From NCBI GenBank assembly GCA_900696455.1, contig CAADGB010000246.1, positions 1 to 56,229 on the forward strand: a stretch of DNA of 56,229 nucleotides, written 5' to 3'. Position 1 is the stretch's first letter. Each line of letters starts with the position of its first letter. Below the pieces are notes generated by a model. It searched no databases. It was not told where the DNA came from and saw nothing but the letters and a program-made list of their open reading frames with translations. This document shows positions 33,195-39,876 of this stretch, piece by piece. Source of the DNA: an uncultured delta proteobacterium (GTDB lineage Bacteria > Myxococcota_A > Polyangia > Haliangiales > Haliangiaceae). The position numbers and the translations under genes were made by a program.

Positions 33195-34076
33195 ATGGCC
33201 CGCCGCTTCGGCATCAGGCGCCTGCGCCGCGTCGAGCTGAGCCGGTACTGGCGCATGTTCGTGGTCGCGCTCGGCGCGCTGGCGGTCGCCGGCGCCGCCA
33301 TCCTCGTCCTGGCGCCGGCCTTCGCCGGCGTCTTCCTGCTCGCGCTCTACTGCATCCCCACCAACTCGGTCTTCCCCTTCCCCCACGAGCCCGGCGTCCT
33401 CTACGTCGCGCGCTTCTACGACCCGCTGTGGATCACGCTCGCCGCGACCGCCGGCAGCGTCGTGGTCAGCTTCTCCGACTACGCCCTCGTCGACTGGGCG
33501 ATGCGGCACCCGCGCAGCCAGGGCGCGCGCGAGGCGCGGATGTTCCGGTGGGCGGTGCGATGGATCGCCCGCGCGCCGTTCGCGATCATCGTCCTGTTCA
33601 CGTTCGTGCCGCTGCTGCCGCTGTCGCTGGTGCGCGGCCTGGCCCCGGCGGCGGGCTACCCGGTTGGTCGCTACATCCTGGCCCAGATCGTCGGCCGCCT
33701 GCCGCGCTTCTACGGCCTGGCGTGGCTGGGCGCGGTGCTCGAGCCTCCGGGCTGGCTCCTGCTCGCGCTGTTCGCGATGCTGCTGGTGTCCCTGTGGCTG
33801 GGCGCGCGCACCCGCACCGAGGGCGAGGTCGACGTCGCCGAGGTCACCGAGCCGCTGGTCGCGCCGTCGCCCGAGCTCGAGGTCGTGGTCGTCCCCGATC
33901 TGAGCGACCCCGAGCACCCGGTCGCCGTCGATCCGGACGCCCCCGCCGGGCCCGTGGCGACGTCGCCGCCGCCCTCCCCGCCCGGCGACGCGCCCGCGGC
34001 CGCGCCCGAGGACAGCACGCCGGCGTCGAGCCAGCGCAGGAGCAGCGACACCGCCCGCTCGTCGGCCGCCGGCTGA
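33195..34076 (+). CDS. VTT-domain (SNARE-associated/DedA-like) membrane protein
   Basis: A 293-residue protein, MARRFGIRRLRRVELSRYWR, with five or so membrane helices between residues 20 and 207. Family features are ALYCIPTNSVFPFPHEPGVL and FTFVPLLPLSLVRGLAPAAG, followed by GRYILAQIVGRLPRFYGLA, which match the VTT core. These proteins are scramblase- or transporter-like in the inner membrane. The last 87 residues are an acidic, Pro-rich tail not needed for the core. That tail overlaps the convergent bufC gene by 367 bases. ATG 33195 fits the start of the homologous region. Confidence 0.82.
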   Translation: MARRFGIRRLRRVELSRYWRMFVVALGALAVAGAAILVLAPAFAGVFLLALYCIPTNSVFPFPHEPGVLYVARFYDPLWITLAATAGSVVVSFSDYALVDWAMRHPRSQGAREARMFRWAVRWIARAPFAIIVLFTFVPLLPLSLVRGLAPAAGYPVGRYILAQIVGRLPRFYGLAWLGAVLEPPGWLLLALFAMLLVSLWLGARTRTEGEVDVAEVTEPLVAPSPELEVVVVPDLSDPEHPVAVDPDAPAGPVATSPPPSPPGDAPAAAPEDSTPASSQRRSSDTARSSAAG

Positions 34077-34747
34077 GCGGCCAGCGGCTCGCACGCCGCG
34101 GCGAAGCTGGCGCCGGCGGCGAGCGCGGTCAGCACCGGGGCCTCGTCGGCCTCGAGCGTGCGGTGGACGACCGTGACCTCGCGCCGCCACACCAGCACCG
34201 CGCGGGCGAGCGGCCGGGGCGTGGGCGGCGGCCGGTCTTCCTCGAGCGCGTCCCACAGCTCGTCGGCGTTCCAGGCCAGCGCCACGAGCTGCGCCGACGG
34301 CACCAGCGCCAGCCGCAGCCCCGGGAAGTCCTCGGGGGCGAGCCGGGCGAGGTCGTCGCGCCCCAGCGGGGTCACGTCGCGGCCCCCGTCGAAGGCCTCG
34401 AGCCGCGCCCGCTCGAGGCGCGCCAGCTCGACCAGGTGCGGCGGCTCCCCGCGGGCGGCGAGGAAGCCGGCCAGGTCGCGCCCGACCTCGCGCAGCGACG
34501 GGTGGGCCGGCGGATGCGCGCGCAGGTAGTCGGGGGTCAGCGCGCGCACCCGGCCGGTCAGCGCCTCGAGCTTGGGGTAGTCGGCGACCAGCACGCCGGC
34601 GATGCGCGCGGTGTACGCGTGGGCGTAGACGCGCAGGCGGGCGAGGCCGTCGCCGTCGTCCTCGATCAGCGCGCGCGCGTCCGCGAGCGGCGCGGCGCCG
34701 GTCACCGCGGCATGGAACCCGGCCAGCACGCGCGCGAGCTCGCTCAT
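33710..34747 (-). CDS. bufC: BufC/HvfC-type partner of an MNIO RiPP enzyme (DUF2063)
   Basis: A 345-residue protein starting at ATG 34747, overlapping the bufB TGA by four bases. The N-terminal domain is the HvfC/BufC (DUF2063) type: ELARVLAGFHAAVTGAAPLA, RLRVYAHAYTARIAGVLVAD, YPKLEALTGRVRALTPDYLR, AHPPAHPSLREVGRDLAGFL. The C-terminal domain ends in the conserved-looking VSLLLRWLDAGVLS near residue 245. About 99 low-complexity Ser/Thr/Gly residues follow because no stop occurs until 33710. In characterised systems this protein recruits the precursor peptide to the DUF692 enzyme. The tail is antisense to the VTT protein gene and may be unimportant, or the frame may contain a sequencing error. 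Confidence 0.85.
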   Translation of the reverse strand: MSELARVLAGFHAAVTGAAPLADARALIEDDGDGLARLRVYAHAYTARIAGVLVADYPKLEALTGRVRALTPDYLRAHPPAHPSLREVGRDLAGFLAARGEPPHLVELARLERARLEAFDGGRDVTPLGRDDLARLAPEDFPGLRLALVPSAQLVALAWNADELWDALEEDRPPPTPRPLARAVLVWRREVTVVHRTLEADEAPVLTALAAGASFAAACEPLAAQPAADERAVSLLLRWLDAGVLSSGAAAGASPGGEGGGDVATGPAGASGSTATGCSGSLRSGTTTTSSSGDGATSGSVTSATSTSPSVRVRAPSHRDTSSIANSASRSQPGGSSTAPSHARP

Positions 34748-35637
34748 GACGGCCCCGCCGGTCCGCCACCGTCCGCCGCGCCGCCGCGTCGCGCCGCGCC
34801 GGCGATCGCGCGCGCCCGCCCCAGCTCGGCCACCAGCTCGGCCAGGGGCGGGAGGTGGTCGTCGCGCTCGAGGCAGGTGGCCGCGGCCGGGAAGCGGCGG
34901 GCGGCGCGGGCGTAGAGCGCCCACACCTCGTCGCGGACCGGCGCGTCGTGGGTGTCGATGAGCAGGGCGCCGCCGTGGCTGTGCCCGGCGAGGTGCAGGT
35001 AGCCGACGCGCTCGACCGGGATCGCGGCGAGGTAGGCGGCGGCGTCCCAGCCGTGGTTCCGGCACGACACGAAGACGTTGTTGACGTCGAGCAGGAGCCC
35101 GCAGTCGGCGCGGCGCGCGACCTCGGCCAGGAACGTCGCCTCGTCGAGCTCGGCGCCGCGCAGGACGACGTAGGTCGACGGGTTCTCGAGCAGGATGCGC
35201 CGCCCCAGCCGCTCCTGCACCGCGGCGACCCGGGCCGCGACGTGGGCCAGCGCCTCCTCGGTGTACGGCAGCGGCAGGAGGTCGTGGGTGTTGTGGCCGC
35301 CCAGCGAGGTCCAGCACAGGTGATCGGAGACCACGGCCGGCTCGACCTCGGCGCACAGCGCCGCCACCCGATCGAGGTAGGCGTGATCGAGCGGATCGGT
35401 CGAGCCGATCGACAGCGAGACGCCGTGCAGCGCGAGCGGGGTGTGGGCGCGCACCGCGCGCAGCACGCGGCGCGGGTTGCCGCCGTCGACCAGGAAGTTC
35501 TCGGTGATGACCTCGAACCAGTCGACGCCGGCGACCGGGCCGCTCATCGCCTCGCGGTGGTGATCGCGGCGGAGCCCGAGGCCGAACCCGAGCCCGCCCC
35601 CGGGCGAGGGGCCCGGGGTGACGGCGAGGTCGCCCAT
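34744..35637 (-). CDS. bufB: BufB-type multinuclear non-heme iron oxidase (MNIO, DUF692)
   Basis: A 297-residue TIM-barrel enzyme related to MbnB. Family motifs appear in order: GLGLRRDHHREA, DWFEVITENF, LHGVSLSIGSTDPLD with a metal His, VSDHLCWTSLGGHNTHDLLP with a metal His, RRILLENPSTYV with a metal Glu, LLLDVNNVFVS with Asp and Asn ligands, YLHLAGHSHGG, LIDTHDAPV and a final CLERDDHLP Glu. All expected iron ligands are therefore present. It should oxidise Cys residues of the adjacent BufA core, giving thiooxazole-type heterocycles in characterised bufferins. ATG 35637 is chosen, 19 bases after the bufA stop; in-frame GTGs at 35646, 35652 and 35682 are alternatives. It is translationally coupled to bufC. 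Confidence 0.92.
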   Translation of the reverse strand: MGDLAVTPGPSPGGGLGFGLGLRRDHHREAMSGPVAGVDWFEVITENFLVDGGNPRRVLRAVRAHTPLALHGVSLSIGSTDPLDHAYLDRVAALCAEVEPAVVSDHLCWTSLGGHNTHDLLPLPYTEEALAHVAARVAAVQERLGRRILLENPSTYVVLRGAELDEATFLAEVARRADCGLLLDVNNVFVSCRNHGWDAAAYLAAIPVERVGYLHLAGHSHGGALLIDTHDAPVRDEVWALYARAARRFPAAATCLERDDHLPPLAELVAELGRARAIAGAARRGGAADGGGPAGPS

Positions 35638-35656
35638 GCCGCCCACGCCCACCGGC

Positions 35657-36016
35657 TCAGGGCCGGTTGGTGACCTTGCCACCCTTCTGGTTGCACTCGT
35701 CCTCGGTCATCGGCAGGACGCCCTGCCCCTTGCACTCGTTCTGGCCGCCGCAGCCGTGCTTCTCGGTCTTGCACGTGCTCTGGCCCTTGCACTCGTTGAC
35801 GCCGTAGCAGTCGACCTTGGCCACCTTCTCGGCGGCCGGATCGGGCTTGGCCGCCGGATCGGGCTTGGCCGCCGGATCGGGCTTGGCCGCCGGGTCGGGC
35901 TTGGCCGCCGGGCCGGCCGACGGCTGCGCCTCGGTCTTGTCTTCCTTCTTGCACGCCGTGGCGAACAGCGTGCCGGCGGTGAACGCGATCAGGGCACCAG
36001 TCTTCGCGAGCTTCAC
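35657..36016 (-). CDS. bufA: bufferin-type (BufA2-like) Cys-rich RiPP metallophore precursor
   Basis: A 119-residue precursor starting at GTG 36016 with a good ribosome site (GGAGGA). Residues 1-21 form a Sec signal peptide (LAKTGALIAFTAGTLFATA). The signal ends A-T-A just before Cys22, which fits either signal peptidase I or a weak lipobox. Residues 35-62 are a linker of four AKPDPA-type repeats. The Cys-rich core (70-108) has six Cys with spacing C-x5-C-x5-C-x6-C-x5-C-x12-C and the repeated NECKGQ motif (CYGVNECKGQSTC and CGGQNECKGQG). This matches the BufA2 pattern, and the next two genes encode its MNIO enzyme and partner. The modified product should bind copper in the periplasm. Confidence 0.9.
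   Translation of the reverse strand: MKLAKTGALIAFTAGTLFATACKKEDKTEAQPSAGPAAKPDPAAKPDPAAKPDPAAKPDPAAEKVAKVDCYGVNECKGQSTCKTEKHGCGGQNECKGQGVLPMTEDECNQKGGKVTNRP
35832..35909 (-). repeat. 18-bp repeats encoding the AKPDPA linker of BufA
   Basis: Four near-perfect tandem 18-base units (GCCGCCGGATCGGGCTTG on the plus strand) encode the hexapeptide AKPDPA on the minus strand. Copy number changes would vary the distance between the signal peptide and the Cys-rich core in steps of six residues. Confidence 0.85.
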
Positions 36017-36063
36017 GTGGGGTCCTCCAGGAGCCGGTGAGCTGGTTACGGTAGCATGGAAGC
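36017..36063. promoter_or_regulatory. 47-bp divergent region between bufA and di-haem peroxidase
   Basis: Only 47 bases separate the two GTG starts. It contains the bufA ribosome site (GGAGGA on the minus strand). At least one promoter must therefore lie inside the opposite gene's 5' end. I could not place promoter boxes. Confidence 0.4.
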
Positions 36064-37419
36064 GTGCGACGAACGCCCCGAGGATCTGCCGCGCGCGCCG
36101 CCGTGGCCGCGCTCGCGCTCGCCACCGCCCCGGCCGGGCTCGCCGCCTGCGGGTCGGGCAAGCGCGACCAGCGCGACCAGCGCGACCCCGCGCCCACCGA
36201 CCCCGGCGCGCTCACCGCCGAGGAGCGGCTCCAGCTCGCGAAGCACTCGCCGCTGCCGCCGCTGCCGCCGGATCCGACCAACGCCGTGGCCGACGACCCG
36301 CGGGCGGCGGCGCTCGGCCAGATGCTGTTCTTCGACCCCGACCTCGCCGGTCCGCTGCGGGTCGCCAGCCCGCTCGGCGCGGTCGGCGAGCGCGCCAGGC
36401 TGACGTGCCACACCTGCCACGGCGGGCCGGCGCTCGACGACCAGCACTCGCGGCCCAACCACGTCTCGATCGGCACCGGCATCGGCCACCGCAACTCGCC
36501 GCCGGTCCTCAACTCGGCGTACTACCTGTGGAGCAACTGGGGCGGCCGCTTCGACTCGGCGTGGTCGCTGGTGATCGGGGCGATGGAGAACCCGGACGTG
36601 ATGAACGGCTCGCGGCTGGCGCTGGCCCACACCCTGTTCGCGACGTATCGCGCCGAGTACGACGCCCTCTTCCCGGTCCCGCTCGACCCCGCGCTCGATC
36701 CGGCGGCGGCCGACGCCGCCCGCTTCCCGCCCGACGGCAAGCCGGCGCCGGCCGGGGCCGCACCCGGGCCGTGGGAGGCGATGACCGCGGCCGATCGGGC
36801 GATCGTCGATCGCATCGCCGCCAACGCCGGCAAGGCCGTGGCGGCGTACATGCGCACCCTGGTCGCGCGCGACGCCCCCTTCGATCGCTTCGCCGCCGGC
36901 GACGTGCGCGCGATCTCGCCGGCGGCGCGGCGCGGCTTCCAGCTCTTCGTCGCCCACTGCCAGTCCTGCCACAGCGGCCCCCACTTCGCCGACGACCGCT
37001 TCCACGCCCTGGCCATGCACCAGTTCGGCGAGCACGTCCCCGAGACCGATCTCGGCCGGTTCACCGACGTGGTCCCGCTCCTCGCCAGCCCGTTCTCGAC
37101 CGCGGGCCCGCACAGCGACGGCCCGAGCCGCCTCGACGGCCTCGCCCAGCGCGACGAGCTGCGCGGCCAGTTCCGCACCCCGACCCTGCGCAACGTCGCG
37201 GTGACCGCCCCCTACATGCATGCCGGCCAGCTCGCCACCCTGGCCGCCGTCGTCAACTTCTACAACGTCGGCGGCGGCTCGGTGCCGGGCGTGGTCAAGT
37301 CGCCGGAGATGAGGCCGCTCGGGCTCACCGCCGAGCAGAAGGCCGACCTGGTCGCGTTCATGGAGTCGCTCACCGACACCCGCCTGCCGCCGGAGCGCCT
37401 GCGCGACACCTCGCGCTGA
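36064..37419 (+). CDS. di-haem cytochrome c peroxidase (CcpA/MauG family) lipoprotein
   Basis: A 451-residue protein starting at GTG 36064, with a signal peptide and the lipobox LAAC (Cys29). It has two haem sites, C115HTCH in RLTCHTCHGGPALDD and C299QSCH in AHCQSCHSGPHF, as in bacterial cytochrome c peroxidases and MauG. Further family features are LGQMLFFDPDLAG, NSPPVLNSAYY, and GQFRTPTLRNVAVTAPYMHAGQ with the distal-site region. It would reduce peroxide or catalyse a MauG-like protein oxidation in the periplasm. It diverges from bufA. Di-haem MauG relatives (MbnH) occur in some methanobactin/MbnP copper loci, so a functional link with the bufferin is plausible but unproven; no MbnP-like gene is seen. 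Confidence 0.9.
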   Translation: MRRTPRGSAARAAVAALALATAPAGLAACGSGKRDQRDQRDPAPTDPGALTAEERLQLAKHSPLPPLPPDPTNAVADDPRAAALGQMLFFDPDLAGPLRVASPLGAVGERARLTCHTCHGGPALDDQHSRPNHVSIGTGIGHRNSPPVLNSAYYLWSNWGGRFDSAWSLVIGAMENPDVMNGSRLALAHTLFATYRAEYDALFPVPLDPALDPAAADAARFPPDGKPAPAGAAPGPWEAMTAADRAIVDRIAANAGKAVAAYMRTLVARDAPFDRFAAGDVRAISPAARRGFQLFVAHCQSCHSGPHFADDRFHALAMHQFGEHVPETDLGRFTDVVPLLASPFSTAGPHSDGPSRLDGLAQRDELRGQFRTPTLRNVAVTAPYMHAGQLATLAAVVNFYNVGGGSVPGVVKSPEMRPLGLTAEQKADLVAFMESLTDTRLPPERLRDTSR

Positions 37420-37476
37420 GCGGCGTGGCGGCGGCGGGCTGGAGGCGCGCGGGCCGCGCTGGTATCCTGGCGGGTG

Positions 37477-39174
37477 ATGGACGAGCGGGGCGCACGTGCC
37501 GGACGCGGGTTCGCGCTGGAGGAGACCCTCGCCGGCGACTCGTCGGGCGCGTCCCCCGGCGACGCCACGCCGACCGGCGACGGCGCGACCGAGCCGGGAG
37601 GCCGTGGCGCCGCCGCCGGCGCGACCACGACCGGGGCCGGGCGCGTCGCCGTCGCCACGCCGCTGCCCGGCAGCGCCAGCGAGGAGCGCCTGGCCGCGGA
37701 GCGCCAGGCCGAGCTCGACCGGCTGGAGCAAGTCGGGCACGTCCTGCGCTTCCGCGGCTTCATGCCGTTCGTGCTCCTCGTCTGGATCGGGTTCGGCGTG
37801 GTGGACTGGACCGTCGTCACCTACATCGCCCCGGGCCCCTTCCTGCCCTTCCTGCTCCTGCGCGGCGGGATGGCCGTCCTGATCGCCGCCGCCGTGTGGT
37901 GGACGCGACGGTCGCCGCTCGTGGACGCGCGGGCCTTCCGACCGTTCGAGCTCGGGCTCTTCGTCGCGGCCAGCGCCACGATCAGCGGCATGGAGTTCGT
38001 GTACGGCGGCATCACCTCGCCCTACTTCGCCGGGGTCATGATGACCCTGCTGGTGCGCAGCATCATCGTGGCCCGGCCGTGGCGCCAGGGCGTCGCCGAG
38101 TTCGGGCTCATCGCCCTGACCTCACCGGCGGTGCTGCTCGCCGGCGGGCTCTTCTCGGCGGAGCTCCGCGCCCAGCTCGGCGACGCGGCGGCGCGGGCCG
38201 CCTTCCTCCACAACCTGGCGTTCATCGGCGGCGCCGTCGTCTTCATCGTCATCGGCGGTCACGTCACCTGGAGCCTGCGCCGCCAGATCTTCGAGACCCG
38301 CAGCATCGGCCGCTACCGCCTGCGCCGCTGCATCGGCAAGGGCGGCATGGGCGAGGTCTGGGCCGCCCACGATCAGACCCTCAAGCGCGACGTCGCCCTC
38401 AAGATCCTGCGGCCGGAGCGCGTCACCGCCGAGTGGCTGCAGCGCTTCGAGCGCGAGGCGCGCGCCACCGCCGAGCTCTCCCACCTCCACACCGTGCGCG
38501 TCTTCGACTACGGCGCCAGCGACGACGGCATCTGGTACCTGGCGATGGAGCTGCTCGAGGGCGAGACCCTGCGCGCCCGGATCGAGCGCGAGGGTCCGCT
38601 GCCGTCGCCCCTGGTCCGCCGCATCGCCGTCGACGTCGCCGGCGCGCTCGCCGAGGCCCACGGCCGCGGCATCGTGCACCGCGACGTCAAGCCCGAGAAC
38701 CTGTTCGTGGCCACCATCGGCGGCGAGCACGACGTGATCAAGCTCCTCGACTTCGGCCTGGCCAAGACCGAGGCCGCCGACGACGGGCTGACCCGGTCGG
38801 GGTGGGTCGGCGGCACGCCCGCGTACATGTCGCCGGAGGCCGCCACCGGCAAGCCCGCCGACCCCCGCGCCGACGTGTACTCGCTGGGCGCCACGCTCTA
38901 CTTCGCGCTCACCGGCCGCCCGCCCTTCGCCGCGACCTCGCTCGGCGGCCTCATCAACGCCCACCTGGGCCAGGCCGTCGAGGCGCCGTCGCGGCGGGTG
39001 GCCGGCGTCCCGCCCGATCTCGAGGCCGTGGTCCTCGACTGCCTGGCGAAGGACCCGGCGGCCCGCCCCCGCGACGGCGCCGAGGTGCTGGCGCGGCTCA
39101 CCGGCGCGAGCGGCCGCGGCCGCCCGCCCGGCCGCCCTCAGGTGACCGCGCCGAAGAGCGCGCCGGCGCCGTAG
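37477..39174 (+). CDS. Ser/Thr protein kinase with N-terminal six-helix membrane domain
   Basis: A 565-residue protein. Residues 1-90 are Gly/Ala/Thr-rich. Six membrane helices follow at about 95-115, 121-142, 153-174, 181-198, 205-226 and 245-266. The kinase domain (about 278-545) has all key motifs: GKGGMGEV, VALKIL with Lys309, HRDVKPEN (401-408), DFGLAK (425-430), GTPAYMSPEA and DVYSLGATLY, so it should be active in the cytoplasm. In PASTA-type kinases the membrane segment lies after the kinase; here it precedes it, forming a sensor-like module without an obvious extracellular domain. ATG 37477 is preferred to GTG 37474. The end overlaps the convergent VIT1 gene by 37 bases. Confidence 0.92.
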   Translation: MDERGARAGRGFALEETLAGDSSGASPGDATPTGDGATEPGGRGAAAGATTTGAGRVAVATPLPGSASEERLAAERQAELDRLEQVGHVLRFRGFMPFVLLVWIGFGVVDWTVVTYIAPGPFLPFLLLRGGMAVLIAAAVWWTRRSPLVDARAFRPFELGLFVAASATISGMEFVYGGITSPYFAGVMMTLLVRSIIVARPWRQGVAEFGLIALTSPAVLLAGGLFSAELRAQLGDAAARAAFLHNLAFIGGAVVFIVIGGHVTWSLRRQIFETRSIGRYRLRRCIGKGGMGEVWAAHDQTLKRDVALKILRPERVTAEWLQRFEREARATAELSHLHTVRVFDYGASDDGIWYLAMELLEGETLRARIEREGPLPSPLVRRIAVDVAGALAEAHGRGIVHRDVKPENLFVATIGGEHDVIKLLDFGLAKTEAADDGLTRSGWVGGTPAYMSPEAATGKPADPRADVYSLGATLYFALTGRPPFAATSLGGLINAHLGQAVEAPSRRVAGVPPDLEAVVLDCLAKDPAARPRDGAEVLARLTGASGRGRPPGRPQVTAPKSAPAP

Positions 39175-39827
39175 GTCAAGGCCATCGCGATCGCGCCCCA
39201 GACGGTCACGCGGGCCGCCCCGCGCAGGAGCGCCGCGCCGCCGGCGCGCGCGGCCAGGGCGCCGAGCACGGTCAGGCACGCGAGCGAGGTGAGGACCACC
39301 GCCGGGTAGAGCGCGCCGTCCGGGACCAGGATCGCGATGAGGAGCGGGAGGATGGCGCCGGCGGCGAAGGTCGCCGCCGAGGCCAGCGCCGCCACGATCG
39401 GGCGGGCGCGGTGCATGTCGACGATGCCCAGCTCGTCGCGGGCGTGGGCGCCGAGCGCGTCGCGGGTCATGAGCTGGGCCGCGACCTGACGGGCCAGCTC
39501 GCGATCGAGGCCGCGCGCGACGTAGATGTCCTCGAGCTCGTGCGCCTCGGCGTCGGCGTTGGCGGCGAGGTGGCGCTCCTCGAGCGCGAGGTCGGCCTGC
39601 TCGGTGTCGGCCTGCGAGCTCACCGACACGTACTCGCCGGCCGCCATCGAGATCGCCCCCGCGACCAGACCGGCGACGCCGGCGGCGGCGATCGCCGCCG
39701 ACGACGCGCTGGCGGCGGCCACGCCCAGGATCAGGCTCGCGGTGGACACGATGCCGTCGTTGGCGCCCAGCACCGCGGCCCGCAGCCAGCCGATGCGCAT
39801 CGAGCGGTGCTGTTCGAGCGGCGGCAC
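39138..39827 (-). CDS. VIT1/CCC1-family iron/manganese transporter
   Basis: A 229-residue membrane protein. The family N-terminal signature is RIGWLRAAVLGANDGIVSTA, then SLILGVAAASASSAA and ISMAAGEYVSVSSQADTEQA. A central cytosolic helical domain (about 75-140) contains Glu-rich LALEERHLAANADAEAHELE, which binds metal in this family. Three more membrane helices follow. It should export Fe2+ or Mn2+ from the cytoplasm. GTG 39827 (MPPLEQHRSMRIGWL) is selected; GTG 39845 and ATG 39800 are alternatives. It is convergent with the kinase gene, overlapping by 37 bases. Confidence 0.88.
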   Translation of the reverse strand: MPPLEQHRSMRIGWLRAAVLGANDGIVSTASLILGVAAASASSAAIAAAGVAGLVAGAISMAAGEYVSVSSQADTEQADLALEERHLAANADAEAHELEDIYVARGLDRELARQVAAQLMTRDALGAHARDELGIVDMHRARPIVAALASAATFAAGAILPLLIAILVPDGALYPAVVLTSLACLTVLGALAARAGGAALLRGAARVTVWGAIAMALTYGAGALFGAVT

Positions 39828-39876
39828 GCGGGGAGCATGACACACCGCCGCGTCGGGGCGACGCGCGCGGCCGATC

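Follow-up and report, generated by a model that had tools for sequence, protein, structure and literature searches.

A putative lipid-anchored BufA2-type bufferin with a long spacer, encoded beside a diheme MauG-like lipoprotein gene in the Haliangiaceae

The bufABC operon and its limits

The 56,229-nucleotide stretch of DNA analysed here (the window) comes from an uncultured delta proteobacterium of the Haliangiaceae and carries the genes bufA, bufB and bufC in tight order at positions 33710–36016 of the reverse strand, so that the operon is read leftward. The first gene, bufA (35657–36016, reverse strand), begins with a GTG start codon preceded by a GGAGG Shine-Dalgarno sequence and encodes a BufA2-type bufferin precursor of 119 amino acids, which scores 76.2 bits against the curated BufA2 model NF050166 (cut-off 60). 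The precursor can be divided into a signal (residues 1–21), Cys22, a linker (residues 23–69) and a six-cysteine core (residues 70–108). Next comes bufB (about 34744–35637, reverse strand), starting 19 bp past the bufA stop and encoding an MNIO bufferin maturase (359 bits against the bufferin maturase model NF050167, cut-off 310, and 358 bits against PF05114), followed by bufC, whose start at 34747 on the reverse strand overlaps the bufB stop as ATGA and whose product contains a DUF2063 domain (PF09836, 46.4 bits, cut-off 27.2) and remains below the cut-off of the HvfC model NF050145 (37.6 of 142). The coordinates and the family models, with curated cut-offs passed by BufA and BufB and that of Pfam by BufC, confirm the original prediction from the sequence of a BufA2-like bufferin operon with tightly coupled genes in the order bufABC. 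Weak matches of BufA to TonB, ClfB and similar proteins were rejected as low-complexity similarity to the linker. In the 7.98-Mb assembly the window's bufA is the sole BufA2 gene, and its bufB the sole MNIO gene, that was found.

The cysteines of BufA lie at positions 22, 70, 76, 82, 89, 95 and 108. The six in the core, which had been recognized at the outset, are invariant across 27 aligned sequences and conform to the pattern C-x-G-x-N-x-C ... C-K-G. The assertion that BufB has every iron ligand was likewise upheld: the iron ligands of TglH are His71, His107, Glu151, Asp184, His216, Glu258, Asn187, Asp229 and His231 (PMC10880893), and with the motif register set against 3bww the counterparts of all nine were located in BufB as H72, H107, E152, D185, N188, H216, D229, H231 and E258.

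The left end of the operon needs a correction. The in-frame stop codon of bufC does lie at position 33710, originally given as the limit, yet the extent homologous to relatives is 34028–34747 (reverse strand), and the last ~100 residues of the frame are antisense to a convergent membrane-protein gene (about 33227–34076, forward strand), the two genes overlapping by ~367 bp (33710–34076) with both frames open. In the related locus L079, bufC stops directly after the homologous RWLDA motif and the tail of the window's bufC has no counterpart, so the domain really ends near 34028. Neither a copper regulator nor a copper exporter was identified next to the operon within the window.

Cys22 and the signal peptide

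The Sec signal and lipobox of BufA are encoded at 35951–36016 (reverse strand), with the codon for Cys22 at 35951–35953. As in lipoprotein signals, a charged n-region is followed by a hydrophobic stretch and a lipobox ending in cysteine; the seventh cysteine that had been noted at the signal end completes this lipobox, L-F-A-T-A-C. The hydrophobic stretch passes directly into C-K-K without a polar c-region, giving lysine at both +2 and +3.

The BufA2 sample used for comparison was not random, being drawn from 56 relatives, 379 genomes of the phylum, a public genome collection and directly retrieved sequences, and yielded 141 distinct BufA2 precursors with a plausible signal. Conservation of Cys22 in relatives was the test set for its role in the original prediction, and close family relatives do carry a cysteine at the aligned position, with (L/M)-F-A-x-A-C as the common signal ending (LFATAC in the window and in L021, MFAAAC in L003, LFAAAC in L010, LFASAC in L011 and L019, and LFANAC in L008). 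Within this family the residue at -2 varies and the linker cannot be aligned while the cysteine is constant; even L008, which with asparagine at -2 narrowly misses the lipobox pattern, retains it. Lysine flanking the cysteine also recurs, as CKK in L003, L008, L010 and L019 and as CEKK in L011. The sister soluble-type bufferins L005, L015 and L016, in contrast, have no cysteine at this point, an additional c-region leading to an AxA-type site (for example LFATA-APVIASA) and a short spacer. A lipid attachment site would be expected to show just such conservation, set against the soluble sisters, and at the level of sequence this supports lipidation of Cys22.

Two other readings of this residue have to be weighed. 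Signal peptidase I might cut A-T-A/C, so that the product would be a soluble bufferin of the ordinary kind whose N-terminal cysteine is free, since A-T-A fits the AxA rule and is a valid site for that enzyme at the very same bond; the -3 residue is alanine instead of the usual lipobox leucine, and most of the sampled BufA2 precursors lack a lipobox, the PROSITE-type pattern being present in 38 of the 141 and absent in 103. We nevertheless consider this reading unlikely, as the conserved Cys22 stands at the very position where soluble relatives lack a cysteine, those relatives carry an added c-region that BufA lacks, and there is no evident reason for a free reactive N-terminal thiol to be conserved. 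That Cys22 lies within an MNIO substrate would also allow it to be a seventh modified or metal-binding cysteine of the RiPP with no role in lipid attachment, but this is highly improbable: such a cysteine occurs only at the lipobox position, which in the closest relatives is 46–60 residues away from the core, and soluble family members keep all six core cysteines without an equivalent of Cys22.

Lipidation thus being the preferred reading, the flanking lysine bears on where the protein would reside. Eight of 12 inner-membrane lipoproteins of Myxococcus xanthus have lysine at +2, and mCherry bearing a signal with +2 lysine was located in the inner membrane (PMC3222651). By this rule, taken from M. 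xanthus, a member of another class, the +2 lysine predicts retention of BufA in the inner membrane. The lipobox state itself changes 8 times on the best BufB tree, with at least 3 changes forced by well-supported branches and the exact number unsure on account of long branches, so that switching between soluble and anchored forms looks repeated. Two genomes, G024 and G025, each encode bufferins of both types.

The linker and a model of the tethered bufferin

Between signal and core, four AKPDPA repeats had been reported, and an 18-bp tandem repeat encoding these four units was found by Tandem Repeats Finder at 35831–35911 (reverse strand; 4.5 copies, 96% match). The distance from the cysteine to the core in the long-linker members of the family is 46 residues in L003, 48 in the window, 54 in L019, 57 in L011 and 60 in L010, and is shorter in L008 (23) and L021 (22). 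Within the long-linker group the sequence of the linker, repeats included, is unconserved, and only its approximate length and its A/P/K/D/E/T composition are kept; that length rather than the repeat seems to be maintained suggests, from these comparisons, a spacer. The linker had been envisaged as a rigid proline-rich stalk. An AlphaFold model of BufA, itself weak (mean pLDDT 63), has no secondary structure before residue 68, which leaves the rigidity unproven and makes a flexible spacer the safer reading.

Across the sample, precursors with a lipobox have a longer segment between the hydrophobic stretch and the core (median 26.5 versus 17 residues; Mann-Whitney p 1e-14, uncorrected), a difference that is partly definitional and for which the BufB and core trees give only 2–3 well-supported independent pairs. 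With so few pairs, and a direction that is not demonstrable on the trees, the correlation of lipobox with long linker was dropped as an evolutionary rule, and the contrast in linkers is stated, from the sequences compared, only between the clade of the window and its sister clade.

We propose, with a probability of a little under 80%, that the bufABC operon makes a lipidated, tethered BufA2-type bufferin. The operon, the family membership of its products, the iron-ligand positions, the lipobox, the conservation of Cys22 and the approximate conservation of linker length are observed at this locus, and relatives and the literature provide the probable modification chemistry, lipidation, choice of membrane and copper binding. 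In bufferins an MNIO–partner pair oxidises cysteines to thiooxazoles and the product chelates excess periplasmic copper (PMC12452194), the Sec signal doubling as leader (PMC12452194, PMC13419390); for DybA and NedA it has been found that a precursor can enter the Lgt–LspA–Lnt route after modification, both being lipidated experimentally (PMC12636315). On this model BufB and BufC would recognise the precursor in the cytoplasm, with the signal peptide as leader, and would convert core cysteines into thiooxazole-type ligands, after which the modified precursor would be exported by Sec. Lgt would then place diacylglycerol on Cys22, LspA would cleave on its N-terminal side, and N-acylation by Lnt may follow. 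The lipidated BufA would be retained in the inner membrane by its +2 lysine, and the disordered linker of 47 residues would extend the six-cysteine core into the periplasm, where the core would buffer excess copper. A copper context is seen in the relative L079, where genes for MbnP (PF20243, 88 bits) and for an MbnH-like protein lie nearby; in the genome G009 an MbnP (PF20243) gene and an MbnH-like gene follow, tying that locus to copper.

Bufferins are widespread copper-buffering peptides whose lipidated subset is known almost solely by prediction. The idea that a tethered arrangement had not been described does not hold, as ~16% of Buf2 bufferins were already predicted to be lipoproteins (PMC12452194), and bufferins with SPII signals have been noted, as a subset, alongside the triacylated oxazolin NedA (PMC12636315). 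The window shares gene order, six-cysteine core, Sec signal and MNIO and DUF2063 partners with the BufA2 (Buf2, Buf_6/12Cys) bufferins encoded with bufBC (NF050166, NF050167; PMC12452194), but differs from them in its long low-complexity linker with near-perfect 18-bp repeats, in that no DoxX gene was identified adjoining the operon, and in its divergent gene for a MauG-like lipoprotein. NedA, from Neisseria dentiae, resembles BufA as an MNIO-modified copper RiPP with a lipobox, its triacylation having been established by mass spectrometry in E. coli, but has a core of EGKCG repeats and belongs to another precursor family; DybA, a chryseobasin lipoprotein of ChrA type, is likewise a RiPP–lipoprotein hybrid made through an MNIO, but with a CPACGMG-type core, a ChrH-like enzyme and a macrocycle as product (PMC12636315). 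To this known, predicted subtype the window adds a well-supported lipo-bufferin that has a long spacer and possibly a diheme partner. It offers a clean test case, in that a single cysteine decides between anchored and soluble forms, each kind is represented among the close relatives, and G024 and G025 carry the two side by side.

The divergent diheme gene and related loci

Head-to-head with bufA, across a shared intergenic region of 47 bp (36017–36063), lies a gene of the diheme CCP/MauG superfamily (36064–37419, forward strand) whose product has a lipobox of its own (AGLAAC). Only the superfamily model PF03150 is passed by this protein (90.6 bits); it shares the CCP_MauG domain with the MbnH and MauG diheme enzymes, but its scores against their models fall far below the cut-offs (124.3 of 362.9 bits for TIGR04039 and 132.3 of 443.9 bits for TIGR03791, respectively). 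The intergenic region, which putatively controls both directions, contains the Shine-Dalgarno sequence of bufA together with a TAnCAT element 6–8 nt before the GTG start of the diheme gene, the latter common to the window, G005 and G009; this spacing is compatible with a leaderless diheme message, and a scan for sigma-70 promoters found none. Past the diheme gene lie a Ser/Thr kinase gene (37474–39174, forward strand) and a VIT-family transporter gene (39138–39845, reverse strand; PF01988, 218 bits).

The locus points to a diheme peroxidase as partner of the bufferin. Among 30 family genomes, the clade of diheme proteins with 72% identity is encoded head-to-head with a lipo-bufA in all three of its genomes (the window, G005 and G009), all three orthologs have a lipobox, and the retrieved flanks of 15 homologs of lower identity contain no buf gene. 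As an extension of the tethered-bufferin model, and not an alternative to it, the operon and the diheme lipoprotein could form one membrane-anchored redox/metal stress module in which peroxide or copper chemistry taking place at the tethered bufferin is either exploited by the peroxidase or guarded against by it; taken as a whole this is possible, though we would not call it probable. The pairing is known from three genomes, where adjacency may reflect shared inheritance; in G006, G024 and G025 no such diheme gene was found next to the lipo-bufferin loci; and the BufA core contains no conserved Trp or Tyr for oxidation of the MauG type, which we judge unlikely for BufA because of this missing aromatic target. 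With three genomes, the link between diheme protein and bufferin is suggestive only. A limited literature search of partial coverage yielded no earlier report of a bufferin–MauG link, and the MNIO survey paper makes no mention of MauG or peroxidases. Whether part of the host's family possesses an undescribed copper/redox module of the membrane surface, with a lipid-anchored bufferin on a spacer of ~50 residues and a lipid-anchored diheme peroxidase under one divergent control region, we regard as rather doubtful.

Several related loci show further arrangements. In G006, a genome of the same genus (L179:7985–8269), a lipo-bufA is followed by DoxX and by another small exported precursor, in which CGGKDGCGGK motifs are repeated and which matches no NCBIfam family above cut-off; the locus continues with bufBC and a gene of the AhpC/TSA type, after which comes a further bufBC pair in divergent orientation. 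G025 encodes four bufferins, three of the anchored type and one of the soluble type; in this genome the soluble-type bufferin L018 has a long C-terminal tail of KPADKP/KPAT repeats. Elsewhere in the phylum, L174, L175, L177 and L178 combine a lipobox and linkers of 37–105 residues with a repeated core of the CKGQNxCKGxGGC type, do not have the last BufA2 segment, and possibly represent a separate bufferin-like subtype.
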